Shown: one piece after another, positions 19,930 to 50,385 of the stretch | Numbering within the stretch: position 1 is the stretch's first letter | Layout of the letters: every line of letters starts with the position of its first letter | Assembly (NCBI GenBank): GCA_937951415.1 | Contig: CALFBW010000014.1 | Coordinates: 1-50,636 of the forward strand | DNA length: 50,636 bases | Source of the DNA: an uncultured Chitinophagales bacterium | Lineage (GTDB): Bacteria; Bacteroidota; Bacteroidia; Chitinophagales; UBA2359 | Direction of reading: 5' to 3' | Translations under genes and position numbers: made by a program | The notes under the pieces: model-generated | The model's input: the letters and a program-made list of their open reading frames with translations, nothing else | Database searches by the model: none | Told to the model about the DNA's origin: nothing

Positions 19930-20979
19930 TTATTCTGCAAGAAAAAGCTGCTCACAATCTAGCATCAAGTTGCCCTCATATACCGACCATTCTCGAAGCA
20001 AAGACCTGTCCCCATTCTCCTTGAATTTTTGCTTACATATAATTCTCCCCTGATCGTCAAAAAATTCAGAAGTTTGCACGGGAACGCCCTTTTGGTAGAC
20101 TTCGTGAAATTTGATCGCTCCATTCGGATAATAAGTTATGTCTAAGCCTTGTTTAATTCCGTTTACGAATTCGATCTTTCTGTGTAGCTGCCCTTTTGTA
20201 TCATAGTAAATTTGAGCTCCGTGCAACTTCCCCTTCTGATAATTCAATACTCGAAATTTCTTTCTTGTTCCGTGCCAATCTCGAAAAGGGCCCTCCAATT
20301 TTCCATTCTTAAAGTTAGCCGCTGACTTCAAATCTCCAGAGACAAAATACTTTTTCGTAATAGAATCTCTTTTTCCCTTCTTGTAAAATGCTAATTCCTT
20401 TAAATGCTGCGATGTGTAGTATTGTTCTTGTCGGCCTGTCTGTTTCCCAGCAGAATAAAAGTACTTTGCCTTCCACTCTCCTGTTCTGTAGTATTCGTTT
20501 TCTGCTCCTTCCCTTTTCCCGTTCTGATAGGTCGATAATTTTCGAATTGCGCCATTCTTGTAATAGGCAGATACCTGTCCTGCCTTTTTACCATTAACAA
20601 ATACGCCTTCACTTGAAAGTTCGCCAGTGAGAAACCAATTTTTAAAGGGGCCTACTCGAATTCCCTTTTCGAAAGACTCCATTCCTACTCGTACTTCCTT
20701 ACCTTCTTGAAAAAGGAATTTCTCTTGCAGCCCACTCAGATATCCATTATCACAATTAGAATAAATGTGGTAGCGCTTTCCTCTCTTTTCCGAAAGCTCC
20801 CGAACTGGTCCGGAATAAATCTGTCCATCTAAGCGAAATCGCAAGTCATCTCCTAGCACTAAATTTTCTATTGACTCGAATCTCGGCGCCCTAGCATCTT
20901 CACATGAAAAAAAAATCACAAGAAGGCAGCCCAGTAGAAAACCAAAATAAGGCCCTATCGCCAAATTACCTTTATTCAT
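19930..20979 (-). CDS. MORN_2 (YwqK-like) repeat lipoprotein, copy 1
   Basis: The 349-residue product has a lipoprotein signal with the lipobox FFSC at about residues 23-26 followed by acidic residues (CEDA). About ten repeats of roughly 23-24 residues follow, with the pattern Y-x-x-G-x-x-x-G, aromatic, NG, basic. Databases often call such proteins 'YwqK antitoxins'; nothing toxin-like is adjacent, so I reject that role. Its start overlaps the upstream 571-residue membrane protein gene by 8 bases. It is probably anchored at the outer membrane. Three paralogues lie in the same locus. Confidence 0.85.
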   Translation of the reverse strand: MNKGNLAIGPYFGFLLGCLLVIFFSCEDARAPRFESIENLVLGDDLRFRLDGQIYSGPVRELSEKRGKRYHIYSNCDNGYLSGLQEKFLFQEGKEVRVGMESFEKGIRVGPFKNWFLTGELSSEGVFVNGKKAGQVSAYYKNGAIRKLSTYQNGKREGAENEYYRTGEWKAKYFYSAGKQTGRQEQYYTSQHLKELAFYKKGKRDSITKKYFVSGDLKSAANFKNGKLEGPFRDWHGTRKKFRVLNYQKGKLHGAQIYYDTKGQLHRKIEFVNGIKQGLDITYYPNGAIKFHEVYQKGVPVQTSEFFDDQGRIICKQKFKENGDRSLLREWSVYEGNLMLDCEQLFLAE

Positions 20980-25416: not shown

Positions 25417-25606
25417 TTTACCTTTTGCTTAAGACTGACATTAGATGCTGCAAGTTACTATTAGTGCCCAAAAGTGCCCCTGTCTTTACATATCGTTCAG
25501 CAGCAAATATTCACGGTCTAGGTGAAAAATAGTAAGTATTGTGACTATATGTACCGAACATATTTTCCTACCTTGTGGATGGAGCTGGGATAATATCTGT
25601 TTTGTT

Positions 25607-27163
25607 ATGAGATTTAGTAAGTGTAAAGTCAATTCTTTCCTCTCATTGAGGCTATCAATTGTTGGAAGTTTTTTGTCATTTCTACTGTTTTCAAATTTTA
25701 CCTGTGGATCAACAGACAGTAGCGCAAGTTCTGCTAGCGTTCCCGTTTCAAGTATTGCACCAAAAGAAAGCACGCAATCAAAAAAGAACATTCTTTTCAT
25801 CTCCATAGATGACTTGAGACCTGTTCTAACTTGCTATGGGAACCAAGAAGTACAGACCCCGAACATAGATAAGCTGTGTAGCAATTCTGCTGTATTTACA
25901 AAAGCCTACGCGCAATATGCTTCTTGTAATCCATCTAGATCAAGTTTACTGACAGGACTACTTCCCGAGGCTACTGGAGTAATAAGAAATAGTCAGATTT
26001 TGCGAAATGAACAACCAGATATAGTAACACTCCCACAAAATTTCAGAAATCAAGGATACAAGACCTATGGATTAGGCAAGGTGTTTCATGAGTTTCACGA
26101 TGCTAGAACACTTTTAGAAGACCCAATGTCTTGGGATTATGAATTTCATGTGCAGCGAGACCCGCTGAACGTTATTGAGTATCATGATCCAGTAAATCTT
26201 GACAAGCGGAACATCACCAAACGAAAACGAATCAAGTCGATCGAATTTTACGATGATCCTGACGAGTCCTATGACGACGGAAAAATTGCTTCTAAAGCTT
26301 GTTCGCTTTTAAAGTCTCATCGAGATTCAGAACCATTTTTCTTGGCTGTAGGTTTCAAAAAACCGCATTTGCCTTTCGTAGCTCCTAAGAAGTACCGTGA
26401 TTTATACGATGAGCTTAATACTCGACTGCCGCAAAACACCTCTGCACCTCAAGGAGCTCCAACGGAGGCTTTAATCGATTTTAATGAATTAAGAGGCTAT
26501 GATGATATTCCCAATGAAGGTAAACTTAACGACTCTGTTGGCATTGAACTGAAGAAAGCCTATTACAGCTGTGTCAGTTTTATTGATGCGCAGATTGGTA
26601 GAATCATGAAAACACTTGAGCAAGAAGGCTATGCAGATAATACCATTGTTGTTATTTGGGGTGACCATGGTTTCAAACTTGGGGAATATGGATCTTGGGC
26701 GAAGAATAGCAACTACTCCGTCGATATTCATGTTCCTCTAATTGTTCATCACCCTGGAACAAGGGGAAGAAAAACGGTAAAAGAAGTAGTAGGTTTAATC
26801 GACCTTTTTCCCACTTTATGTGAGTTGGCGGGTGTAAACAATCTTCCAGACTTACACGGCAATTCTTTTGCTCAATTGTGCACAGGTTCTTCTACGGAGA
26901 AAACCACCAATGCCTATGCTTTTTCCCAAGTTCGAAGAAAAGGCATGATGGGCTACAGTATAATCAATGAAGATTTCCACTACATCAAATGGGTCTCCAC
27001 GTCGAACAAGAAGAAAGAAAAAATTGAATTGTATGACCTAAAGGTGGATTCGAAAGAGACTAAAAACAGAGCTGCAAATCCACAGAATAGATCAATATTG
27101 GATCAAATGGATGTTTTACTTGAAGAACAACTAGCTCTTATCGCGAAAAGAAAGAAGGCTTAG
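25607..27163 (+). CDS. sulfatase, iduronate-2-sulfatase-like, active site intact
   Basis: The 518-residue exported protein starts at the ATG at 25607 (MRFSKCKV); an earlier ATG at 25541 adds 22 residues unlike a signal. The signal ends near NFTC, so it may be a lipoprotein. Catalytic residues are all present: metal-binding DD in FISIDDLRP (68-69), the formylglycine site CNPSR (Cys107), GKVFH (Lys158, His161), the FKKPHLPF histidine (254), GDHG (353-354) and the WAK lysine (366). The Cys-type site can be matured by FGE or by anSME. It removes sulfate esters, so it probably trims a sulfated glycan. It overlaps the convergent MORN_2 gene by 4 bases. Confidence 0.93.
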   Translation: MRFSKCKVNSFLSLRLSIVGSFLSFLLFSNFTCGSTDSSASSASVPVSSIAPKESTQSKKNILFISIDDLRPVLTCYGNQEVQTPNIDKLCSNSAVFTKAYAQYASCNPSRSSLLTGLLPEATGVIRNSQILRNEQPDIVTLPQNFRNQGYKTYGLGKVFHEFHDARTLLEDPMSWDYEFHVQRDPLNVIEYHDPVNLDKRNITKRKRIKSIEFYDDPDESYDDGKIASKACSLLKSHRDSEPFFLAVGFKKPHLPFVAPKKYRDLYDELNTRLPQNTSAPQGAPTEALIDFNELRGYDDIPNEGKLNDSVGIELKKAYYSCVSFIDAQIGRIMKTLEQEGYADNTIVVIWGDHGFKLGEYGSWAKNSNYSVDIHVPLIVHHPGTRGRKTVKEVVGLIDLFPTLCELAGVNNLPDLHGNSFAQLCTGSSTEKTTNAYAFSQVRRKGMMGYSIINEDFHYIKWVSTSNKKKEKIELYDLKVDSKETKNRAANPQNRSILDQMDVLLEEQLALIAKRKKA

Positions 27164-28449
27164 GGATTTTCAACTAGTATGCCTTCATGAGTCCACTCTT
27201 CTTCTTCAATTAAGCTATCGTAAGAATACAGCGCCCTACTTTTTAGTTGGCCGTTGGGATACCATAATTCCTGCCAACCATTTTTTGCGCCATTTGCATA
27301 ATTGGTCTTTTTCTTCACTTTTTCTCCTAGGAAGTACATGGTTTCTTCTTGATCAATCTTTCCGTCTACATAGCTGGCTAACAACTTAATATCGCCATTG
27401 AGGTACCAAGATTTAGAAAAGCCATTTTTCAATCCTTGCTTATACTCAGCTGTTTCCTTTACTTGACCATTTCGGTAATATTCCTTTTGCTGCCCATCTT
27501 GCTTTCCGTTTACATACGCTTTCTCAAATTGAAGCATTCCATCAGAATACCATTCTTTACAATTGCCGTGCAAAAGATCAGCACTAAAACTCAGTTCCTT
27601 TTTGGGTTTGGTATTCTCATGCCACACCTTTCTAAAGCCTTCTCGCAAACCATTGACAAATTCTGTGGATTCTTTCAAAATACCGTTCTTGTACCACATT
27701 TTACGCTCGCCAATCAGCAATCCCTTTTCATACCATTCTTCAATTTCCAGTCGACCAGTAGGATACCAAAACTCCCACTTTCCTGTTTTCTTACCATTCT
27801 TGTAGCTTCCTTGCGCCCTTTGCAGACCATCTTCGTACCACTCTCTTGAGAGCTTCTCCAAGTTCCCAGAATCATAAAATCGCTTCAACTTTTCTTTGCC
27901 GCTCCGAAACCACTCTGTTTCAAAACCGTTCTTTTTGTTCTTTTCGTAAATCGTTTCTTTCCATTTTAGGCTCTCAGCATCATCGTAAAACTCAAGCGTC
28001 GTACCTTGCAAGAGGCCCTTCGACCATTGTTCAACTTTTCTCAAATTTCCACTTGGATGATAGTATTTAGCCTCGCCTGCTTGCTTGCCTCCCTCAAAAT
28101 ACTTTGATAGTTGAACCGCTTCATTGGGATGATAAAATACCTGCTCACCATCTAACACATTTTTATTGTAGTTACTTACCGTCCTAATCGTACCCCTTTG
28201 ATAATATTCGACTTCTGTTCCATGAATCAATCCGTCTACATACGGAACTTTCTTTGTTAGAATATCCTTTTTCTTTGACCGGTAAGTGATGGTTCCGGTA
28301 AAAAGTTTATCGTCTAAGTAAGCCAGCTGATCAACTATTCTAACATCGGTAATCTTGATTTCAGCAACTCTTCCATCACAAGACGCAAAAAGTACAATTA
28401 GCAGAAGAAGGCTGCCATAAGCTCTTAGTATGTCAAATCTAAACACCAT
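27160..28449 (-). CDS. MORN_2 (YwqK-like) repeat lipoprotein, copy 2
   Basis: The 429-residue product has a lipoprotein signal with the lipobox FASC (about residues 22-25), then about 14 MORN_2 repeats. The recurring core is W/Y-Y-x-x-G plus N-G-K (GTTLEFYDD, GKWEFWYPTGRLE, GWQELWYPNGQLK). Its ATG overlaps the stop of the upstream YfhO-like gene by one base (TAATG), giving translational coupling. It is the last gene of the long minus-strand operon. Its 3' end overlaps the convergent sulfatase gene by 4 bases. Function unknown; see paralogues at 19930, 38004 and 39198. Confidence 0.86.
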   Translation of the reverse strand: MVFRFDILRAYGSLLLLIVLFASCDGRVAEIKITDVRIVDQLAYLDDKLFTGTITYRSKKKDILTKKVPYVDGLIHGTEVEYYQRGTIRTVSNYNKNVLDGEQVFYHPNEAVQLSKYFEGGKQAGEAKYYHPSGNLRKVEQWSKGLLQGTTLEFYDDAESLKWKETIYEKNKKNGFETEWFRSGKEKLKRFYDSGNLEKLSREWYEDGLQRAQGSYKNGKKTGKWEFWYPTGRLEIEEWYEKGLLIGERKMWYKNGILKESTEFVNGLREGFRKVWHENTKPKKELSFSADLLHGNCKEWYSDGMLQFEKAYVNGKQDGQQKEYYRNGQVKETAEYKQGLKNGFSKSWYLNGDIKLLASYVDGKIDQEETMYFLGEKVKKKTNYANGAKNGWQELWYPNGQLKSRALYSYDSLIEEEEWTHEGILVENP

Positions 28450-31166: not shown

Positions 31167-32168
31167 TTAAAGCGTGCCCGTCATTCTACGATAGGTGTCG
31201 ATGATGGGAACTCTTATAGACATCGGACAAAAATAAACCTTTGATTCTAGCCAATTTGCCAGTTTTGCCAACACAATTTTGGGTCGAGCCTTCAGTTTCT
31301 CCATTCCTGAAGGTTCTTGCTCAAGTGTTTCGTAGTCAAATTTCTCTAACATAGCCTTTGACCACCAACTTGCCAAACGCTGATCTTCTTCAGACATGTT
31401 CTTTTTCCACTTGCTAATCTTTGATGCTTCGAGCGGACGATTATAGAAATACCTCCAACTCTCCAACTTTTCTTGACCTTGATGGAAATTCAACATCTCG
31501 TCAGAATAAGTGAGACCCACTTTTGCGCAAACATTTTGCAAAGTTTCTTTTGGGTTTCCAAGCAAATCTTCAAAACGAACCAGCAAGACTCGTTCTTTGT
31601 ATTTGTCTGCAAAACGCAGAATGTGTTCGTTGCAGTTGACCCAACGTTCTGCCAAAATTGCTGTATCGTTAAAATCAAAGCTCACATTTTTACAAGAAGT
31701 GATATTATCACGAACATCCCGAATCATGATGACAAAATTCGAATCGGGAAATGCCTCCGCAAGTTCTGGCAAGAAATAACTATACGATGGATTTTTATCT
31801 CCTAAAATGGGTGCATTTTTATTAGAACGATTCAAAGATTGGTGATGAAAAACCACTTTGCAAAGTTTTTCAAAAGTGGCTTTATTTCCTAGAGCCAACA
31901 GATCTTCTTTAAGCTTTTCTTTTACTTGATCCAACTTCCAAAACTGTGTAAGTCGAATCTCTTTCCACATGTCGTCGTAGAAGTTCAAGATTCTCTTTTC
32001 ATCAAATGCTCCCTTGTGATACTTGGTGTATAAATGCATAATAAAAGGCGATTCCTGTGGAAGGAAGACCTCTTCATGTGCATTCAAAATACGGTTCAAC
32101 AAAGAAGTTCCTGAACGGATTCTTCCCGCGATAAAAAACAGCTTATAATTATCAGGATTCGTAGCCAT
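31167..32168 (-). CDS. sulfotransferase (PAPS-dependent), copy A
   Basis: The 333-residue protein has the 5'-phosphosulfate-binding loop FFIAGRIRSGTSLLNRIL (about residues 11-28) and the 3'-phosphate-binding FVIMIRDVRDNITSC (about 145-159), typical of the Sulfotransfer_3 group. It would move sulfate from PAPS to a hydroxyl or amine of a glycan or lipid in the cytoplasm. It overlaps the flippase-like gene upstream by one base. It is one of three sulfotransferases here. Confidence 0.9.
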   Translation of the reverse strand: MATNPDNYKLFFIAGRIRSGTSLLNRILNAHEEVFLPQESPFIMHLYTKYHKGAFDEKRILNFYDDMWKEIRLTQFWKLDQVKEKLKEDLLALGNKATFEKLCKVVFHHQSLNRSNKNAPILGDKNPSYSYFLPELAEAFPDSNFVIMIRDVRDNITSCKNVSFDFNDTAILAERWVNCNEHILRFADKYKERVLLVRFEDLLGNPKETLQNVCAKVGLTYSDEMLNFHQGQEKLESWRYFYNRPLEASKISKWKKNMSEEDQRLASWWSKAMLEKFDYETLEQEPSGMEKLKARPKIVLAKLANWLESKVYFCPMSIRVPIIDTYRRMTGTL

Positions 32169-34136: not shown

Positions 34137-35126
34137 CTATTTAAAATAACTAAATGCTTCTTCAAACTTTAATAAATCTGAAGATTCAGCAGGGGTCTTT
34201 CGAAATTTCCCTGGACCGTGATAATCTCCCTCCAAATTGTAGTCGAGCATTTTCAATTTTGACTTGATTTGCTCGAAGCTCTCCTTAGGGTCTGCACAAA
34301 ACTTTTCGTATTCAAAGCTAAGGCGATTTTCTTCAGGTATCTTCCCCAAACCCTCTCTAATCGCTGCATTCGTGAAATGTACTTGCCCCGCCAATTGTTT
34401 CTCTGGTGAAAGTGCCTTCAAGTCATGAAACTCTGGTGGTTTATAGGAGTACCAAGTCGAACTGTTTTTAAAAAATCGCAATCGAGCCTTTTGCAGAGAA
34501 AGCATGTTCTCTATGGGATTGCGTTGCATGTGAATGAAGAGACTGTTTGGAAATAAATTGTGCAGATAAGGAATATGCCAGTTGAGAATCATGGCTTTCA
34601 TCACCATTGGCCGTTCAAAAACTTCTTGAACTCCCATGAGCTCTTTCTTGAAGGCCTCTCCATCTACTTTGTCTAGTTCTTCTTTGGAAAGTTGTTGAAT
34701 TTCCCCAAAGGCAAAAAAGCGCTTCCAGAAGTACCAAAACTCATGCGGACTACTCGCTCCAATGGTCTTACCCATATTGGACTTAAAGTTCAATTGCTCC
34801 TTTTCCTCTCCAAAGATTTCCCCATTAGCGTCCAGATCGATCAAAATCTGATGCATTTTGGCGGCTAAGATGGGAGCTTTGTAAAAGCGCGACATCAAAT
34901 TAGAGAAGTAGGCGAACGGACCTAGCTGCGACAACCATTGTAATAGCAAAGTGGTTCCACTGCGAGCACAACCCACAATAAACACCATTGGATACCTTGG
35001 CAAATTTCCTTTAACACTCTCCAATAGCACCTCTTCTGAATCAGACAATAAACCATTTACTTCGTTTAACAGCTGCTCAAGATTCAAGTCCTTTTTGTAA
35101 GCTTCCGATCGTTGTTCGTTCTTCAT
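34137..35126 (-). CDS. sulfotransferase (PAPS-dependent), copy B
   Basis: The 329-residue protein carries the P-loop-like MVFIVGCARSGTTLLLQWLSQ (about residues 48-68) and the 3'-phosphate motif HMQRNPIENMLSLQ (about 200-213). It is only distantly similar to copies A and C, so the three probably modify different acceptors. It overlaps the upstream PLP-dependent gene by 4 bases (ATGA) and is 15 bases from the GT2 gene downstream. Confidence 0.87.
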   Translation of the reverse strand: MKNEQRSEAYKKDLNLEQLLNEVNGLLSDSEEVLLESVKGNLPRYPMVFIVGCARSGTTLLLQWLSQLGPFAYFSNLMSRFYKAPILAAKMHQILIDLDANGEIFGEEKEQLNFKSNMGKTIGASSPHEFWYFWKRFFAFGEIQQLSKEELDKVDGEAFKKELMGVQEVFERPMVMKAMILNWHIPYLHNLFPNSLFIHMQRNPIENMLSLQKARLRFFKNSSTWYSYKPPEFHDLKALSPEKQLAGQVHFTNAAIREGLGKIPEENRLSFEYEKFCADPKESFEQIKSKLKMLDYNLEGDYHGPGKFRKTPAESSDLLKFEEAFSYFK

Positions 35127-38003: not shown

Positions 38004-39197
38004 CTATTGATCCAATTTTTCGCCGTCTTCAGAATAATAAATCGCTTTACCGATCATCAAATCCTGCTCATATTCTGCCACTTTCTTTACGGCTCCAGTC
38101 GCAAACCATTCTTTCCATTCCCCGTTTTTAAGGCCCTTCTGGTACTGCGCCACCAACTTTTTTTGTCCCGACTTATAATAAGTCTTGAAAGCGCCGTTAA
38201 GTTGCCCATCCGCAGAAAAAGACTCTTCCATAAGCGACCCGCTTGCAAACCACTTTTTTGTACTCTTCAGTCCATCTTTTTCTTGCTCTTCCAAGCTCTT
38301 TTTTCCATTCGTATGGTATTTCACTAAAGAAGTAACCACTCCGTTTGCATCTACAGACTTACGCATTTCTAATTGGCCAGACTCAGTCCAAACAGTCTGT
38401 TCGATGGTACGATTTGGACGCACAATGCGCTCCTCTTTGGGCTCCCCACTTTGGTACCAAGTTTTGAGTACGCCTTCCTGTTTGCCTTGAGAAAAGGTTC
38501 CTTCTGAGGCCAACTGTCCATTGGCGTGCCAATTCTGAACCAATCCAACGCGTTTGCCTTCCACAAAACTCCCCTTAAACTTTTGCATTCCATTGGGATG
38601 CCATTCTAATCGCTCACCTTCCAATTTTCCATTGGCGTAAGTTTCAGATGTTATCAGTTTCCCTTTATCGTCCCATTCTTTCTTATTTCCATGCAGTAAA
38701 TCGTTCTTAAAGAAGGATTCTACGCGGACTTGTCCATTCTTGTGCCAAGATTTTCGCTGACCTTCCTGTTTCCCGTTTAAGTATTGAACAGTCGACATTG
38801 GGTTTCCATTGGGGTAAAACTGTTCTTCTTGCCCGTGCTTGAGGTCATCGACAAAAGCAGCTTTTAATTTCTCCTTCCCATTCTTGTGGTAATGGATCAC
38901 AACGCCTTCCCTTTTTCCATCTTTGTAAGTAAGGGTTTTCTTAGGCTTCCCATCGGGACGGTATTCATGATACTTCCCTACTTTTTTACCCTTTTCGAAA
39001 TGAGCCTCTACACTTAAACGACCGTTCTTATGAATACCTACTGCTTTTCCATTGTAGGCTTGATCTCCGAGCACAAATTCTCCTTGCACTTCCTTCAAGT
39101 CTTCTATTAAGACTTGTCGATTGTTACAGGCCATGCTGCCAATCAAAATAGAAATGACTAGGGTAATAAAAATTATGATCTTGGAGAATGCTTTCAT
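38004..39197 (-). CDS. MORN_2 (YwqK-like) repeat lipoprotein, copy 3
   Basis: The 397-residue product has the lipobox SMAC (about residues 21-24) and about 14 MORN_2 repeats of 24 residues. These have W-H-x-N-G and Y-x-N-G-K-x-x-G cores (QRKSWHKNGQ, GERLEWHPNG, GEWKEWFATG). Its ATG directly abuts the stop of copy 4, and a GGGAGG ribosome site lies inside the end of copy 4, so it is efficiently translated. It ends with a non-repeat MIGKAIYYSEDGEKLDQ. Function unknown. Confidence 0.86.
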   Translation of the reverse strand: MKAFSKIIIFITLVISILIGSMACNNRQVLIEDLKEVQGEFVLGDQAYNGKAVGIHKNGRLSVEAHFEKGKKVGKYHEYRPDGKPKKTLTYKDGKREGVVIHYHKNGKEKLKAAFVDDLKHGQEEQFYPNGNPMSTVQYLNGKQEGQRKSWHKNGQVRVESFFKNDLLHGNKKEWDDKGKLITSETYANGKLEGERLEWHPNGMQKFKGSFVEGKRVGLVQNWHANGQLASEGTFSQGKQEGVLKTWYQSGEPKEERIVRPNRTIEQTVWTESGQLEMRKSVDANGVVTSLVKYHTNGKKSLEEQEKDGLKSTKKWFASGSLMEESFSADGQLNGAFKTYYKSGQKKLVAQYQKGLKNGEWKEWFATGAVKKVAEYEQDLMIGKAIYYSEDGEKLDQ

Positions 39198-40598
39198 TTA
39201 CCTCCCTTTATTCGCTTTAGCTCTATTCTTCTTTGCGTTAGCCTTTTTTCCAGTCTTGCCCTTTTTCTTAGAATTATTCTTTGATCCTTTATCGTTATTC
39301 TTATCAAATCGAACTCGCTTTCCTTCCTTGTTCCACATTCTTATGGGAGCTGATAGGGTATCCTCTGCAAAAATCGCTTCCTTTTTAACTACCCCGTTAG
39401 GATACCAGTGGGTATGATTTCCCTCTCTCTTTCCTGAATTGAATAGTTCCTCGCTTTTCTTACGACCGTCGGGATACCAGCTCTTTCTAAGTCCGTTAAT
39501 GTTCCCCCTTTCGTAGGGAATTTCGGTTATCTTTTTACGTGTTTTACTATCCCACTCAACGTGTAGACCATCTTTTAGTCCATTCTGATAGTAAGTCTCC
39601 TTAACTTTTATACCTGACTTATTCCACCCTTGTTCTATTCCCACAGCTAAACCTGCTTCGTAGTTAGTAGTTAGGCGCATTTTCCCATCTTCATGCCATT
39701 CTTCTCGCTGACCATTCAAGTAACCATCAATGTAACTTGCCTTTACTTTATCTTTTCCACTGTCGTACCATTCTCGATACGATCCAACTTTCTTACCATT
39801 TTCATAAACTACTTCTTTGGCTTTCTGTCCATTCTCATGAAAAGCAGTCCACTTACCGTTCAGCTTACCATTATTGTAATTGGCCGAAACTTCTAACTGT
39901 CCATTTTCGAATCGAGAAGTATATATACCTGTCAGCTCTCCCTTAGCATAGGTAGCTTCCACTTTTGATTGGCCCAACTCAAAGAACTCCTGATATTCTC
40001 CGTCCAGCTGCCCTTCTTCGTTATAGAAAGCTTTTCTCCTTAACTGCTGGTTTGGATAAAACGAATTTTGCTCTCCAATAATCAAGTCGTCCTTTAAGTT
40101 TGTTTTACTCTTAATAGTACCATCGAAAAAGTAAGAGGTTTGCATACCTTCTCGCTTGCCAGCATTCATATAAATCTCTCTCTTCTTGTTCCCATTGGAA
40201 TGATAACTGGCAAACAGGCCATTCATTTCTCCCTCTTTAAAATTCACCTCTTCCTTTTTGGAACCGTCAGGGAAGTACGAGATCTGCAATCCTTCTTGTA
40301 AACCGCTTTGATAATTAGATACTTCTTCTAGAACGTAGTTTTCTCCTTCTTTTCTGTAGGTTTCGCACTTACCTTCCAGCAAACCATTGTTGTATTCGCA
40401 ACGATGTTCAATTTTGCCCTTTTGCTTTTGAATCGACTTCCCTGTAAAAGCTGCTCCTTTCAAGAGCATCCTTCCTTCACCATCATTACTCTTTCTCAAA
40501 CTAGAAAAAGGAACGGATTCTCCGCTATCTCCACAGGAAGTGATTAATAACAACAGGATAGTAAATACAACTAAACTAGCGGCTTTCATAAAATTCAT
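39198..40598 (-). CDS. MORN_2 (YwqK-like) repeat lipoprotein with polylysine tail, copy 4
   Basis: The 466-residue product has a lipoprotein signal with the lipobox ITSC (about residues 19-22) and about 14 MORN_2 repeats. Unlike its three paralogues it ends in a ~33-residue tail (434-466) made largely of Lys, Asn, Gly and Arg, with almost no hydrophobic residue. It overlaps the RffA-like gene upstream by 23 bases (14 if the ATG three codons later is used). The tail could bind anionic glycan or nucleic acid; this is inference. Confidence 0.86.
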   Translation of the reverse strand: MNFMKAASLVVFTILLLLITSCGDSGESVPFSSLRKSNDGEGRMLLKGAAFTGKSIQKQKGKIEHRCEYNNGLLEGKCETYRKEGENYVLEEVSNYQSGLQEGLQISYFPDGSKKEEVNFKEGEMNGLFASYHSNGNKKREIYMNAGKREGMQTSYFFDGTIKSKTNLKDDLIIGEQNSFYPNQQLRRKAFYNEEGQLDGEYQEFFELGQSKVEATYAKGELTGIYTSRFENGQLEVSANYNNGKLNGKWTAFHENGQKAKEVVYENGKKVGSYREWYDSGKDKVKASYIDGYLNGQREEWHEDGKMRLTTNYEAGLAVGIEQGWNKSGIKVKETYYQNGLKDGLHVEWDSKTRKKITEIPYERGNINGLRKSWYPDGRKKSEELFNSGKREGNHTHWYPNGVVKKEAIFAEDTLSAPIRMWNKEGKRVRFDKNNDKGSKNNSKKKGKTGKKANAKKNRAKANKGR

Positions 40599-41706
40599 TT
40601 ATTGCTTCACAAATTTGATCTACCTGCTCTAACTCCAAATCGAAAAAGAGTGGCAAACGAACCAATCTATCGGCAAACTTATCACAGTTAACAAGCTCTC
40701 CTCCTTCGTATTTATCAAGGTAGAAGGGACTTTTATGCAAAGAAAGGTAATGAAAGACGGCTTTTACCGATCTTTCACGCAAAAAGTTAATTAAGTCTGA
40801 ACGATCTGCTAAGTTATTACAAACAACATAAAACATATGAGCGTTATTCGTTGCATAATTGGGAACATGGGGCAGTTCCAGTTTGGCAGTTGCTCCTAAG
40901 GAAGAAAGCCCTTCATAATAACGATCCCAGATTTGTTTTCTTTTGGTTTGAATCACTTCAATGTTTTCCAATTGAGCATAAAGAAAGGCAGCTATGATAT
41001 CGGAAGGCAAAAAAGAAGAGCCTACATCTACCCAGCCGTACTTATCAATTTCACCTCTAAAGAATGCCGAACGATTTGTTCCTTTTTCCCAAATGATCTC
41101 AGAACGCTTTTCGAAACGCTCGTCATTAACGACTAACATTCCTCCTTCTCCAGCGATTACATTTTTTGTTTCATGGAATGAAAAGGCCGACAAATGACCA
41201 ATACCACCAAGCGGCTTCCCTTTGTAAAAAGAATCGATTGCTTGCGCAGCATCTTCTACGACATACAAACCCTTCTCTTCTGCAAGTTCCATGATGGCGT
41301 CCATATCGCATGCGTGGCCTGCATAATGTACAACAACAATGGCCTTCGTCTTTTCAGTAATAAGGCTGCGCACAGACTCAACATCAATGTTGGGATGGGA
41401 TTCTGTAGAGTCTGCAAAGACAATCTTTGCTCCTCGTAAAACAAATGCGTTACAAGTAGAGACGAATGTATAAGAAGGACAAATGACTTCATCTCCGGGT
41501 TGAATATCCAGTAAGATGGCCGCCATCTCCAAAGCATCCGTACAAGATGTTGTCAGTAAAACCTTCTTAAAACCATACTTCTTTGAAAAAAAAGCATGAC
41601 ACTTTTTCGTAAAAGTACTATTGCCCGAAATCTTACCGGAAGTAACAGCTTGAGCTATGTAGTATAGCTCTTTGCCCGACATATATGGCTTATTGAAATT
41701 TATCAT
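40576..41706 (-). CDS. rffA: dTDP-4-amino-4,6-dideoxygalactose transaminase (RffA/WecE-like)
   Basis: The 376-residue PLP enzyme matches WecE/RffA along its length. It has the start FNKPYMSGKELYYIAQAV, TSCTDALEMAAILLDIQPGD, VVEDAAQAIDSFYKGKPLG and SFHETKNVIAGEGGM with the Schiff-base lysine at about 181. It would aminate dTDP-4-keto-6-deoxyglucose to dTDP-4-amino-4,6-dideoxygalactose. The matching N-acyltransferase-like gene is at 47159. The enzymes making the precursor (RmlA, RmlB) are not in the window. It is followed by an overlapping MORN_2 gene. Confidence 0.93.
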   Translation of the reverse strand: MINFNKPYMSGKELYYIAQAVTSGKISGNSTFTKKCHAFFSKKYGFKKVLLTTSCTDALEMAAILLDIQPGDEVICPSYTFVSTCNAFVLRGAKIVFADSTESHPNIDVESVRSLITEKTKAIVVVHYAGHACDMDAIMELAEEKGLYVVEDAAQAIDSFYKGKPLGGIGHLSAFSFHETKNVIAGEGGMLVVNDERFEKRSEIIWEKGTNRSAFFRGEIDKYGWVDVGSSFLPSDIIAAFLYAQLENIEVIQTKRKQIWDRYYEGLSSLGATAKLELPHVPNYATNNAHMFYVVCNNLADRSDLINFLRERSVKAVFHYLSLHKSPFYLDKYEGGELVNCDKFADRLVRLPLFFDLELEQVDQICEAINEFYESR

Positions 41707-44650: not shown

Positions 44651-44985
44651 GACAAACTCGTTTTTTTCTCCAAGAGCACGACGCCCAATACTATCAATCC
44701 CAAACCGATCAACTTCCCAAAGGCCAATTCAGTCTCTCCTTGAAAATATGCAATGGCATAAGTCAGTGGGAAAAACAAGGAAACAATATGATAAGTAGAA
44801 GTCACTTCATACTTCCTATGGATGACTCCCCACAAACCAAACTTCATGGCATTTATAAACAAAGCAATTCCAACACCCCAAAAAAGATACTGCATCGCCT
44901 GATTGTCATTTTCAGACAAATAATCCAAAACGACCGATGAGGCAATCGACAGCACAACCGTTAATAACACTAGTACTACTCTCAT
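44647..44985 (-). CDS. half-size EamA/DMT membrane protein (ArnE/ArnF-like), subunit 1
   Basis: The 112-residue protein has four membrane helices (MRVVLVLLTVVLSIASS onward) and an EamA-like end GKLIGLGLIVLGVVLLE. I use the ATG at 44985, which overlaps the sulfotransferase stop as ATGA; a start at 45003 would add six residues. It pairs with the next gene, and each is about the size of ArnE or ArnF. The likely job is translocation of a lipid-linked sugar across the inner membrane (inference). Confidence 0.75.
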   Translation of the reverse strand: MRVVLVLLTVVLSIASSVVLDYLSENDNQAMQYLFWGVGIALFINAMKFGLWGVIHRKYEVTSTYHIVSLFFPLTYAIAYFQGETELAFGKLIGLGLIVLGVVLLEKKTSLS

Positions 44986-45734
44986 GATATAGTGTTCCAA
45001 CAATGTAGTGATCGCCCGAGCAATTTGGACAATTCGTCATTATGTGATTTGTAATAAGTTGCCAAAGCAGCCTCTACTTCCGAAGAAACTGATTCTGGTG
45101 GACTGGCGTTTATTTTATCTCCTAACTTCTCCCCTTCAATATTTTCCACTCCTAGAAAATCAAAGAGTTCTTTTTTCGACGAGGTTTCAGAATTTACCAA
45201 ATCTTCCAAAACCAATATGTGTAATTGTTCTTTCGGAAAGGCCTGGAAGAATGGTCGAATGTAATCAGCGTATCTACCACGTTCCAAATAGGCAAAAGGG
45301 GAAACAGAAATTTTTCGTTCTAAAACCGGAGCCTCCTTCTTTTCCAGAAACACTTCGGCTAAACTTCGAGTTTCTACTCCGTGCTGTTTCGAAAAGCGAT
45401 AGTTACTTAAGGCTCGCTTTACAGGATTTCTTAAAATCATCAACGCCTTTGCCTTTGGATCAAACCTCAAGATTCGCTCCGAAATATCAGCACACTCTAT
45501 GTAGCTGGTTGACTTTTCTCCCAGTAGATTTTCCGATGTTCTGTGCGCAAAACAAGTCTGATAATATTGTTCCCTCGCTGCTCTGCTACTGATGTCATGA
45601 TCCAATAGAAACCTCGGTTCAGGCCGAACAGGTCTGTTCATACAAATTTCTGGATGTTGATCCAGCAAAGTGTATAAAAAAGTAGTTCCACTTCGTTGGG
45701 CTCCAACAATAAAAAAGTGTTCAGGCTTAGTCAT
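44982..45734 (-). CDS. sulfotransferase (PAPS-dependent), copy C
   Basis: The 250-residue protein has FFIVGAQRSGTTFLYTLLDQ (about residues 7-26) for 5'-phosphosulfate binding and LMILRNPVKRALSNY (about 98-112) for the 3'-phosphate. This resembles the heparan sulfate sulfotransferase-type group more than copies A and B. It overlaps the GT2 gene upstream by one base and the EamA gene downstream by 4 bases. It would sulfate the sugar intermediate or the assembled glycan before export. Confidence 0.91.
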   Translation of the reverse strand: MTKPEHFFIVGAQRSGTTFLYTLLDQHPEICMNRPVRPEPRFLLDHDISSRAAREQYYQTCFAHRTSENLLGEKSTSYIECADISERILRFDPKAKALMILRNPVKRALSNYRFSKQHGVETRSLAEVFLEKKEAPVLERKISVSPFAYLERGRYADYIRPFFQAFPKEQLHILVLEDLVNSETSSKKELFDFLGVENIEGEKLGDKINASPPESVSSEVEAALATYYKSHNDELSKLLGRSLHCWNTIS

Positions 45735-46720
45735 CAGTCAACCTTCTTTTTTATTTTATAAGCCTCATCCACCGACATTTGGCGAATCATCCGAATCATA
45801 TACTCGCCCATCACTCCCATCATTAGGATGGTAAAGCCATTAAAGACAGAAATCAAAACCACCAAGGTGGTCCACCCTTTCACTTCTGAGCCATAAATAA
45901 ATCCGCGAATCAAGAAAAAAGCACCAATCAAAGCGCTTCCAATCGCTAATAGACCGCCTAAAAAAGTGAGTACTTTCAATGGAAAAGAACTGTAGTTGAA
46001 TAGCAAACGGCTCACCAACTTCAAAATCTTCATCAAGGAGTAGTTCGATTGTCCAACCATTCTTGCATGGTGATCTGTTGGAACATTTGCGACCTTTGAA
46101 GAATACATCAGTAATAGACCAGGAATATAAGGATAGAAAGTTCTGTGCCCTACTGCCATTTCCGCCACTTCCTTCGTGAATATTCTAAAATTTGTCAGCG
46201 TAATCTCCTTAGGTTTGTCAAAAACCTTTGCATTGAGATATCCAACCACTTTGGATCCCACTCGCCTTCCCAAAGAATGCTTCTTTTGATGAAAACGGGC
46301 AAAAACCAAATCGTAACCTTCATTGATCTTGCGAATCAAGTGAATCAATTCTGCAGGTGGATTCTGCAAATCATCGTCCATCGTCACCATGTAATCTCCG
46401 GTGGCATTTGCCATACCGCACAAAACAGCCGAATGCTGCCCATAGTTTTTCAATAGATCAATCGACTTAACTTCTTCGTATCGCTGCGCTAAATCTTTTA
46501 TTACCTCCCAAGAGTTATCCTTACTTCCGTCATTAACCAAAACAATTTCAAAGGATAAACGATGACTTTCAAAGAAATCAACGATCTGCTTAACGGTATC
46601 CCTGACAACGTCTTCACTGTTGTAGACAGGAATGACAATGGAGTATACCGACTGTCGATAAAGTTCCATGTTCAAAGGAAGCTCTTGAGCTACATCTTGT
46701 GCAATAACTGCTGTTGTCAT
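45734..46720 (-). CDS. GT2 glycosyltransferase, polyprenol-phosphate type (ArnC-like)
   Basis: The 328-residue protein has a ~27-residue N-terminal lead before YSIVIPVYNSEDVVRDT. It then has LVNDGSKDNSWEV, LLKNYGQHSAVLCGM, MDDDLQNPPAEL and two C-terminal membrane helices (about 235-310). It resembles ArnC/GtrB enzymes that attach a sugar to undecaprenyl phosphate. It is the first gene of the long minus-strand operon. A 231-base leader with a short ORF and a hairpin separates it from the nearest promoter-like box. Confidence 0.92.
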   Translation of the reverse strand: MTTAVIAQDVAQELPLNMELYRQSVYSIVIPVYNSEDVVRDTVKQIVDFFESHRLSFEIVLVNDGSKDNSWEVIKDLAQRYEEVKSIDLLKNYGQHSAVLCGMANATGDYMVTMDDDLQNPPAELIHLIRKINEGYDLVFARFHQKKHSLGRRVGSKVVGYLNAKVFDKPKEITLTNFRIFTKEVAEMAVGHRTFYPYIPGLLLMYSSKVANVPTDHHARMVGQSNYSLMKILKLVSRLLFNYSSFPLKVLTFLGGLLAIGSALIGAFFLIRGFIYGSEVKGWTTLVVLISVFNGFTILMMGVMGEYMIRMIRQMSVDEAYKIKKKVD

Positions 46721-46959: not shown

Positions 46960-47158
46960 TTCGACCTTTTACATAGTAGCACGCAGAACACACTTAAAGA
47001 TTAAATTTGTTGATATTTATCATATTAGCGAACACCCTCACTCGGTATCCTTACGTATTTTGCACGCTTTCTAGTAAATGTGCTTTTACAAATCTTTGTT
47101 CAGGTAGTCAATGATTTGGAATAAATGTCGATACTTGCCTGCAATCCACAAATCAAAC

Positions 47159-47887
47159 ATGAATCACCTGCGTTTTCAGACCAAAGAATGGGACTCCAAT
47201 TTTTTTGGAATCCGGGTAGCCAGCTTACAGGTCTCGGAGGCAGATGACTTATCGAACTTTGAAGAAAAGTATGCAAATGAGATCAAAGCATATGATTTAA
47301 TCTACATTTTTGCTGAAAAGCCGCTGCGTGCAGAAATCACAGGGAAGACCCAAGGTCGCGTATCACTCGTTGATGAAAAAGTAACCTTCCACAAGACGCT
47401 ACGGAAAAAATTTCCCAAAGAAGACTTTATAGTACCTTACAATGAACACTTCAGAAAAGAAGACATCATCAAAATCGGTATTCAATCAGGTACCCAGTCG
47501 AGATTTAAGATCGACCCGCAAATTAGCGAGGAAAAATTCGAAGAGCTTTACCGACTTTGGATGGAAAAATCACTTCAAGGGGAGCTTGCCGATTTAGTCT
47601 TGGTTTGTCGAGAAGAGGAAGAAAATCGTGGGATAATTACCTTGGGAATCAATGAAGACCAAGGATTTGTTGGTTTGTTTGCCGTAAAAGAACAATTTCG
47701 AGGGAGAGGTTATGGCTCACTATTGCTACAAGCAACCGAAAATTGGCTATTAGATCAGAAAGTGAATCAATTAGAAATAGTAACACAGGGATTTTCGAAA
47801 CTCTCGGTTGATTTCTACAAAAAAAGCGGCTTCGAGATCAAAAAAACGCAATATGTTTACCACTATTGGAGTCAAAAGGAAGCTTAA
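47159..47887 (+). CDS. GNAT acetyltransferase, RffC/WecD-like
   Basis: The 242-residue protein starts at the ATG at 47159 (MNHLRFQTKEWDSNFFGI); an upstream start at 47111 adds 16 residues without family match. The WDSNFFG motif and the later VSLVDEKVTF resemble RffC/WecD, which acetylates dTDP-4-amino-4,6-dideoxygalactose. The GNAT acetyl-CoA loop is VGLFAVKEQFRGRGYGSLLL (about residues 181-200). An RffA-like aminotransferase in the same locus supports this role. It is 24 bases from the ATG of the sulfatase-like gene and probably cotranscribed. Confidence 0.85.
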   Translation: MNHLRFQTKEWDSNFFGIRVASLQVSEADDLSNFEEKYANEIKAYDLIYIFAEKPLRAEITGKTQGRVSLVDEKVTFHKTLRKKFPKEDFIVPYNEHFRKEDIIKIGIQSGTQSRFKIDPQISEEKFEELYRLWMEKSLQGELADLVLVCREEEENRGIITLGINEDQGFVGLFAVKEQFRGRGYGSLLLQATENWLLDQKVNQLEIVTQGFSKLSVDFYKKSGFEIKKTQYVYHYWSQKEA

Positions 47888-47911
47888 TTAGCGTTGAAAA
47901 GAATAGAAAAA

Positions 47912-49312
47912 ATGGATCAAACCAGTTTCCACATGCCTTTGCTGGCGATTTTCTTGCTGTTCATTTTGGGCAACAACTCCAACTTGCTGTGTCAAGATGC
48001 TCAAAGCCCTAATGTCATCGTAGTGGTGGTCGACGACCTAGGATGGAAAGACCTCGGATATCACGGCAGTGCCATTCTAAGCCCAAACATCGACAGCTTG
48101 GCGGCCAATGGCACATTACTCGATCGATTTTATGCCTCCAATCTCTCCTCTGCAAGTCGGGCTGGAATACTGACTGGTCAGCATCCAGGAAGGTTTGGAC
48201 TGAGTGAAGAGAACATTTCCCCCAAGAAGTACGGCGGCTTAAACCCCAACGCAATCACTTTGGCGGAAATGCTGAAAAAAGAAGGCTATGAACACCGAGC
48301 TTGCATCGGAAAATGGCAGTTAGGACATTCCAATGTGAAATACCACCCGCTCAATCACGGATTCACACATTTCTATGGAAATTACGGTGACAAGGTAGAC
48401 CACTACAGCCACCAGAGAGACAAATTTGTGGACTGGCATCGCAATTACGAACTAGCCGATGATGAGGGCTATAGCACATCTTTACTAGCAGATGAAGCTG
48501 TTAGTTTTATCGCTTCCGTCCCCAACGAACCTTTTTTCTTGTACTTGTCTTTCAACGCACCTCAAAGCCCTTTACAAGCTCCTCAGGAATATCTTGATCT
48601 TTACGACTTCGACGAGAGCCAAGCTGCTTTCTCTGCCAAAGAAAAAAAGAAAACAACTGATCAGGCAAGCCGAGTAGGCCAAGGGAACAGTAAAAGGCAG
48701 ACCTACTCAGCGATGGTCTCGGCTATTGATGACGCAATCGGACAAGTAGTTTCAGCGCTAGAACTTTTAGAGATTAGAGAAAACACCCTAATCGTATTCG
48801 TTTCGGACGGTGGTGGTAATCCCAAAGAAGGAGCAGCAAGCTTTTTGCAAACTGGAAATATTGGGGAGTTTTACGAAGGTAATCTAAGAACTCCTGCCTT
48901 CGTAAATTTTCCTTCAAAAGTAAAAGCTGGACAAAAAACTGACGCCATTTGCGCGACCATCGATATTGCTCCTACAGTACTTTCACTAATTAATGCAGAA
49001 CACGAATATGCCTTCGATGGTATCGATCTCAGTCCCATCTTAAGCGACAAAAAGAACAGTGAATCCTTGCAAAATCGCATCCTGTACTTAGGTCCTGATG
49101 CCCTCGTGTCCGAAAAATTTAAATTTTACAAGGGAAAACTTTTCTTTCTTCCCAAGGACAAAAAAGAAAAACGAAATCTAAGCAAGCGCAATAAAAAGAC
49201 GGCTGAAAAATTCAGACAACTATTGGAAACGAAGAACAAAGAGTTCGAGTCTCCTGGAGTCATAAAAAAGGGCTTCCATCTCAGTCGTGATTGGAAAATG
49301 CCCATCGACTAA
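47912..49312 (+). CDS. sulfatase-like protein with degraded active site
   Basis: The 466-residue exported protein has a signal peptide (to about residue 28, ending LLCQ). The arylsulfatase fold is kept, but key residues are changed (numbering from ATG 47912). The formylglycine site is S-S-A-S-R (Ser79, Ala81) instead of C-x-P-S-R. GKWHLG has become GKWQLG (Gln136). APHTP has become APQSP (Gln218). SDNGG has become SDGGG (Gly300). The lysine before YEGG is Ile317. Only the DD metal pair, the Arg and the GK lysine remain. It is likely a pseudoenzyme. A TTG at 47894 in the same frame is an alternative start. Confidence 0.85.
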   Translation: MDQTSFHMPLLAIFLLFILGNNSNLLCQDAQSPNVIVVVVDDLGWKDLGYHGSAILSPNIDSLAANGTLLDRFYASNLSSASRAGILTGQHPGRFGLSEENISPKKYGGLNPNAITLAEMLKKEGYEHRACIGKWQLGHSNVKYHPLNHGFTHFYGNYGDKVDHYSHQRDKFVDWHRNYELADDEGYSTSLLADEAVSFIASVPNEPFFLYLSFNAPQSPLQAPQEYLDLYDFDESQAAFSAKEKKKTTDQASRVGQGNSKRQTYSAMVSAIDDAIGQVVSALELLEIRENTLIVFVSDGGGNPKEGAASFLQTGNIGEFYEGNLRTPAFVNFPSKVKAGQKTDAICATIDIAPTVLSLINAEHEYAFDGIDLSPILSDKKNSESLQNRILYLGPDALVSEKFKFYKGKLFFLPKDKKEKRNLSKRNKKTAEKFRQLLETKNKEFESPGVIKKGFHLSRDWKMPID

Positions 49313-49320
49313 ATTAAGAA

Positions 49321-50385
49321 CTACTTGTTTAGGTATTTCTCCGCCAATTGCTGCGCCAGCTTTTCAGTAAAAAGCTGCGCTCCCTTATTATTTACATGAT
49401 TCCCATCCCAAACATTTTCCTCTTGGTAAAGCTCTGGATACAAAGAAGCTGAACTCAAATTAAGTCTGTTCTTTTCGGGAAGCTCAAAAAAGACAGCAGC
49501 TAATTCTGCATAGGAATCTGGTGCCATCATCGGAGGAGCTACGAATATCAATTCAATAGATCTCGATTCACAGTAACGAATTAAATCTAACAATTGATCC
49601 AGATATTCTTGGTTAGTGGGCAAGCCCTCCATCTTCCCATCAAAGTAGCGAATACTGTTCCCTCGTTTCGTTTCATTCAACTTTCGTTTACTTTTCAAAA
49701 AACCCTTTCGAGCTTTCTTCGCTCCGCGGTCTTTCAATTTCTGAATGTTATTATAGCCGTCTCTATTTTCTCCCAGTCCTTTCTCTGCGGGATATTCCGA
49801 CATTGCCAATTCCATTGCCTTAGGCAACATGCCGATATTGAATAAGTTCTCTACCCAATTTATGCTATAGTTCTTTTTTATTAAATATTTATCTACCGAA
49901 TTAAAGTCATCTGCGTAGCCCTCCGTATTTTTCCAACTAAAACCCCAACTGTCTTTATCTAACCAGTATTTATTTCGATTGGTGTGCAAATTTTCTTTGC
50001 AAAATTTATCCCCTAAAGAAGTACCAATAGAACACAATTCAACTACCACCGTTTTTAATTGCTTTGGTTGGTCGGACAGCAAGTCATTTAAAACAAAAAA
50101 CACTTCCCCTGCCGAAGCTCCTGAAATTCCAAAGTTAAAAGACTGCACTTCTAAGCCCGTTTCATCTTGGTAGGTCTTATCAAAACTACTAGGATCTATC
50201 CCGTGATTTATTCTACTTGTTCCTAGGAATAAAAATTCGTATTTATCTTTTTCCTGCTCCCATACTTGCGACTTATTATAAATGACTGGCCCAGCGAAAT
50301 AAGTGGGCACCAATGACCGAATCAAAAACGAAGCGCCCAAGACAAGTAAAACCAATAAGATGAGCTTACTAATAAATCGAAGCAT
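49321..50385 (-). CDS. SGNH-hydrolase-like envelope protein, MBOAT partner
   Basis: The 354-residue protein has one N-terminal membrane anchor (about 7-25). It then has GTSRINHGIDP (about 54-64, at the place of block I), NFGISGASAGE and a C-terminal VWDGNHVNNKGAQLF carrying the Asp-x-x-His pair. This is the arrangement of AlgX/AlgJ/DltD-type proteins that work with an MBOAT O-acyltransferase. It lies 2 bases after such a gene. It would move an acyl group onto a glycan at the periplasmic side. The block I Ser is in GTSR instead of GDS. Confidence 0.75.
   Translation of the reverse strand: MLRFISKLILLVLLVLGASFLIRSLVPTYFAGPVIYNKSQVWEQEKDKYEFLFLGTSRINHGIDPSSFDKTYQDETGLEVQSFNFGISGASAGEVFFVLNDLLSDQPKQLKTVVVELCSIGTSLGDKFCKENLHTNRNKYWLDKDSWGFSWKNTEGYADDFNSVDKYLIKKNYSINWVENLFNIGMLPKAMELAMSEYPAEKGLGENRDGYNNIQKLKDRGAKKARKGFLKSKRKLNETKRGNSIRYFDGKMEGLPTNQEYLDQLLDLIRYCESRSIELIFVAPPMMAPDSYAELAAVFFELPEKNRLNLSSASLYPELYQEENVWDGNHVNNKGAQLFTEKLAQQLAEKYLNK

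Follow-up and report, generated by a model that had tools for sequence, protein, structure and literature searches.

Surveys of marine genomes widely count S1 sulfatases as indicators of sulfated-glycan degradation, and often do so from a Pfam match alone. The gene at 47912-49312 (+) of the 50,636-nucleotide stretch of an uncultured Chitinophagales genome analysed here (the window) raises the question of what such a match stands for when the catalytic residues are gone. An earlier note on this DNA had described the product as a sulfatase pseudoenzyme in which five normally invariant active-site positions are altered together.

A sulfatase fold with an altered active site

The reading frame is open throughout its 466 codons, with no stop or frameshift, and begins with an ATG at 47912 or an alternative TTG at 47894. 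The 466-residue product matches PF00884 (E 2e-51), and an AlphaFold2 model computed from a 37-row alignment (pLDDT 91.8, pTM 0.91) was matched by Foldseek to structures of S1_19 carrageenan sulfatases and arylsulfatase B with TM-scores of 0.76-0.83. By its domain and its alkaline-phosphatase-like fold the protein belongs to the S1 formylglycine sulfatases, of which these two groups are the nearest, and it shares their fold, length and domain order. A single hydrophobic signal segment (47912-47992, +; predicted helix at residues 7-20) occupies the N-terminus and has no lipobox. As a lipobox-like signal was observed in about half of the related sulfatases described below, the location of the window protein may differ from theirs.

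In S1 enzymes the formylglycine attacks the sulfur and a histidine assists. The metal is held by three aspartates and an asparagine and the sulfate by two lysines and a histidine (residues as in PMC5066984). In the window protein, whose pocket was judged from a sequence alignment, the CxPSR motif of the relatives is replaced by S79-S-A-S-R83 (48146-48160; C79S, codon TCC, and P81A, codon GCA), GKWHLG by GKWQLG (H136Q, CAG, 48317-48319), NAPH by NAPQSP (H218Q, CAA, 48563-48565), SDNG by SDGG (N300G, GGT, with D299-G300 at 48806-48811) and GxKGxxYEGG by TGNIGEFYEG (K317I, ATT, 48860-48862), all on the plus strand. The metal ligands D41 and D42 in the VDDLG motif (48032-48037, +) are retained together with R83, K134 and D299. 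The metal site therefore keeps its three aspartates but has glycine at the fourth position, where S1 enzymes have asparagine, histidine or glutamine, while among the sulfate-binding lysines and the two active-site histidines only K134 is kept. The motifs HPLNHGF and DWHRN, which characterize the related clade, are also retained. The codons and the alignment agree exactly with the changes listed in the earlier note, and the frame, the DD pair and the hydrophobic signal segment are present as it had described.

The note had also named residues displaced but present nearby as grounds for rejecting its reading; the alignment around each motif is free of gaps and no cysteine, histidine or lysine was found close by. 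N303 was considered as a displaced N300 and rejected, as the canonical sister protein (L007) has N303 as well (SDNGGN).

Canonical relatives and the S1 family at large

The 19 full-length relatives compared come from eight genomes within the same bacterial family; they share about 40-48% identity with the window protein over the full length, common ancestry and some neighbouring genes (L007, L008, L053 and others). All are canonical barring single deviations in two of them; positions 79, 81, 136 and 317 are invariant in 19/19, and positions 218 and 300 keep histidine and asparagine in 18/19. Unlike the window protein, no member of this clade departs from the full catalytic set at more than one position. 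In a maximum-likelihood tree the window protein lies inside the clade as sister to L007 (support 93/87), so its catalytic loss is derived. Its terminal branch is long, at 1.34 versus 0.43 for L007 and a median of 0.57.

No orthologue with the same losses was found in 20 genomes of the family, 398 of the order and 395 of the phylum or in a scan of the genome contigs, and the search for homologues with the same five changes, which the earlier note had recommended, thus returned none. None of about 800 genomes contained a homologue more than 48% identical, and this inactive set is known from one sequence, derived from a metagenome-assembled genome (MAG).

The description of the five positions as normally invariant is correct for the clade and too strong for S1 sulfatases at large. 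Among 4058 catalogued S1 sulfatases the nucleophile is cysteine in 78.9% and serine in 21.1%, the proline occurs in 87% and is replaced mainly by alanine, the GKWH histidine is present in 81% and the metal-binding asparagine in 61%, whereas the equivalents of H218 and K317 are found in 99% and 96% respectively (PMC5066984). Taken singly, C79S/P81A and N300G are tolerable in the superfamily, H218Q and K317I are rare, and the joint change of all five is exceptional; the losses of H218 and K317 are the most telling. In common with S1 sulfatases the window protein has D41, D42 and D299, the arginine of CxPSR and the lysine of GKW; unlike them it lacks the cysteine, two active-site histidines, the metal asparagine and one sulfate lysine, and formylglycine is not expected. 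The nearest precedent consists of S1 sulfatases of Lentisphaerae and Planctomycetes that have lost Arg55 and were flagged as possibly inactive in the SulfAtlas paper (PMC5066984). These were likewise judged by the loss of a catalytic residue but lack only the arginine, whereas the window protein retains the arginine and has lost five other positions jointly. In the literature searched for inactive or pseudoenzyme sulfatases no bacterial case was found besides this remark, nor was the term "pseudosulfatase", which we use for the gene below, met with.

A probable locus for a sulfated surface polysaccharide

Directly upstream of the pseudosulfatase gene, with a gap of 6 nt to the TTG or 24 nt to the ATG, lies a WecD-like GNAT acetyltransferase gene (47111-47887, +), and the two are probably co-transcribed. 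The earlier note had paired the sulfatase homologue with an amino-sugar acetyltransferase. This is plausible, as the neighbour is WecD-like and a WecE-type dTDP-4-amino-4,6-dideoxygalactose transaminase is encoded in the window (40576-41706, -; NF008687, 570 bits against a cut-off of 375), but the GNAT match itself (NF008212, E 1.9e-27) falls below the NCBIfam cut-off. Only three distant homologues of the GNAT gene were found in 40 related genomes, and the genomes that have them contain no member of the sulfatase clade.

The window further encodes three sulfotransferases (44982-45734, -, PF13469 E 5.9e-19; 31167-32168, -, E 1.2e-30; 34137-35126, -, E 3e-17), a GT2 glycosyltransferase (45734-46720, -; PF00535 E 3e-31) and an intact canonical sulfatase (25541-27163, +; PF00884 E 2.1e-48) with SCNPSR, GKVFH, KKPH and GDHG motifs. 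Other glycosyltransferases, a Wzy_C-domain protein and large YfhO-like membrane proteins occur elsewhere in the window, and small transporter-like proteins, a methyltransferase and a polytopic membrane protein are encoded on the minus strand near the pseudosulfatase gene. From the three sulfotransferases, the glycosyltransferases, the Fuc4NAc genes and the one intact sulfatase, we infer that this is probably a locus for biosynthesis of a sulfated, Fuc4NAc-containing surface polysaccharide.

The canonical relatives were observed in comparable surroundings, with sulfotransferases (G008:C263, G013:C524, G009:C16), Wzx-type flippases (G013:C524, G008:C410), glycosyltransferases, nucleotidyltransferases and YfhO proteins nearby, while some members adjoin unrelated genes (VWA, DUF5686, peptidase, histidine kinase). 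The sister clade also hints at sulfatases that serve the making of polysaccharides rather than their breakdown. Downstream of the pseudosulfatase gene lies a membrane-anchored protein to which no family was assigned (49321-50385, -). Its homologues share contigs with clade sulfatases in four genomes (G003:C550, G005:C381, G009:C16, G013:C524), and in G005 and G013 they adjoin an MBOAT acyltransferase, a pattern suggesting that the ancestor of the pseudosulfatase was the locus's own sulfatase.

A hetero-oligomer with an active close paralogue was also considered; no such paralogue is present among the five PF00884 matches of the genome, which is an incomplete MAG. MORN_2-repeat or MORN-like lipoproteins are scattered in the polysaccharide locus (19930-20979, 27160-28449, 38004-39197 and 39198-40598). 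Elsewhere in the genome PorP/SprF-like and GldJ/GldK-like proteins were recognized by eye (L085, L086); they point to a member of the Bacteroidota that has type IX secretion.

Probable maintenance of the gene and a possible role

Conserved columns were defined as those conserved in at least 18 of the 19 relatives, giving 102 columns, 10 catalytic and 92 other. The window protein changes 5/10 of the former versus 8/92 of the latter (Fisher p=0.0027), and four of these eight (P81, N310, P312 and G324) lie within the same two active-site segments. When the codons of L007 were evolved neutrally until 13 conserved columns had changed, a mean of 4.0 stops arose and only 4% of runs had none, in a simulation that counts stops and not indels. 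The GC3 of the gene is inside the range of its neighbours. Pairwise dN to the nearest relative is 0.51, with dS saturated and undefined.

The 84/92 other columns kept, the simulated stops, the GC3 and the fold together favour a maintained, catalysis-specific loss, and the concentration of losses at catalytic positions in an undisrupted frame favours maintained inactivation over decay. The earlier statement that the gene appears maintained is supported by the intact fold, the retained columns and the absence of stops or frameshifts. Catalytic residues are lost while the fold and the remaining sequence are constrained, as in a pseudoenzyme. We consider it likely that the gene encodes an inactive but maintained pseudoenzyme, an exported S1 sulfatase homologue with its fold under selection, and the protein is well supported by its sequence as a real, unusual inactive homologue, in a single case. 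With the nucleophile precursor gone, together with one metal ligand, one of the two sulfate lysines and both histidines, the protein should turn over sulfate esters negligibly or not at all.

The suggestion that the protein may bind a sulfated glycan without cleaving it is weakened by the same losses. H136, H218 and K317 hold or handle the sulfate, so its binding in the old pocket is not favoured and glycan binding would need outer subsites; the retained HPLNHGF and DWHRN motifs make a glycan contact at such subsites, or a protein contact, the more likely. The pseudosulfatase would have evolved in situ out of a canonical sulfatase belonging to the surface-polysaccharide sulfation locus and may now act non-catalytically on the polymer of that locus. 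While the polymer is assembled or displayed at the surface, the most likely role of the protein would be to hold either a partner protein or, at outer sugar subsites, the polymer itself, the sulfate presumably not being gripped. Such a polymer-handling role is put forward tentatively. Slightly less likely still is a sulfatase fold rebuilt for another job in sulfated-polysaccharide assembly, with either a new Ser-dependent reaction at the three remaining aspartates or a polymer-handling part, free of catalysis, in the sulfation or export machinery.

An unneeded sulfatase that has yet to acquire a stop or frameshift, with the active-site changes as the first hits of drift, is an unlikely reading. 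The long branch (1.34 versus the median of 0.57) is also expected under relaxed constraint, and the occurrence in one species with no inactive orthologue shared would fit an early pseudogene as well. Drift would not be expected to cluster the losses at catalytic positions (5/10 vs 8/92), and the scarcity of stop-free neutral runs (indels uncounted), the confidently modelled fold and the ordinary GC3 likewise count against it.

A maintained pseudosulfatase bears on how genomes are read, as a well-folded member lacking five catalytic positions, in an apparent glycan-making and glycan-sulfating locus, means that counts of S1 sulfatases can include non-degrading proteins. It is also a natural case for asking what the sulfatase scaffold does without its chemistry.

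Possible residual chemistry and maturation of residue 79

Unmodified serine nucleophiles occur in other enzymes of the alkaline phosphatase superfamily, and the window protein might be a hydrolase or transferase that uses unmodified Ser79 at the three-Asp site on another ester, possibly to transfer a group on the polysaccharide. We regard this as quite improbable. Ser79, Arg83, Lys134, D41, D42 and D299 are all in place for it, and choline sulfatase and BcPMH are slowly active without formylglycine when unmodified (PMC6189696). The raised rate could also reflect a new function. However, glycine follows the second metal aspartate, where sulfatases have a metal ligand, as do LtaS, EptA and other relatives with a Ser/Thr nucleophile. 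The residues that bind the transferred group or protonate it, K317, H136 and H218, have been lost, and no replacement histidine or lysine was seen in the alignment. The new reaction offered in the earlier note is without support, though it is still conceivable. The three aspartates, Arg83 and Lys134 may permit some residual chemistry.

The genome encodes a formylglycine-generating enzyme (FGE) with a C-x4-C active-site motif, RGGSFLCNDSYCSGYR (L083), and FGEs of this type act on cysteine. The alternative maturase, anSME (TIGR03942), had no match in this genome, which is 86% complete so that the gene could lie outside the assembly, and none over the cut-off in the 20 family genomes, where a sub-cut-off match of 275 bits was observed in G017. 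In a functional S1 sulfatase a [CS]-x-[PA]-x-R motif goes with a matching maturase; here S-S-A-S-R is accompanied by a Cys-type FGE and, in this 86% complete MAG, by no anSME. Prokaryotic Ser-type sulfatases are reported only from facultative or strict anaerobes (PMC5066984). Because of these three observations Ser79 is probably not matured, and its conversion to formylglycine is unlikely. An active Ser-type S1 sulfatase with a matured S79 is very improbable: S-x-A-x-R counts among the accepted Ser-type motifs (PMC5066984, PMC6189696) and many catalogued S1 sulfatases lack Asn300 and the GKWH histidine, but anSME was not detected in this genome or over the cut-off in the family genomes, every clade member is Cys-type, and the H218 and K317 equivalents lost here are near-universal in S1 (PMC5066984).

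Variation within the canonical clade

Clade sulfatases were observed as tandem pairs adjoining a VWA-domain protein at L058:8435-11301 (G004) and L066:4725-7572 (G013). The two members with single deviations are L066:4725-6158 (G013), which has H218Q alone (NAPH to HAPQ), and L056:2133-3527 (G003), which has N300H alone (SDNG to SDHG); partial erosion of the active site may therefore recur in this clade.
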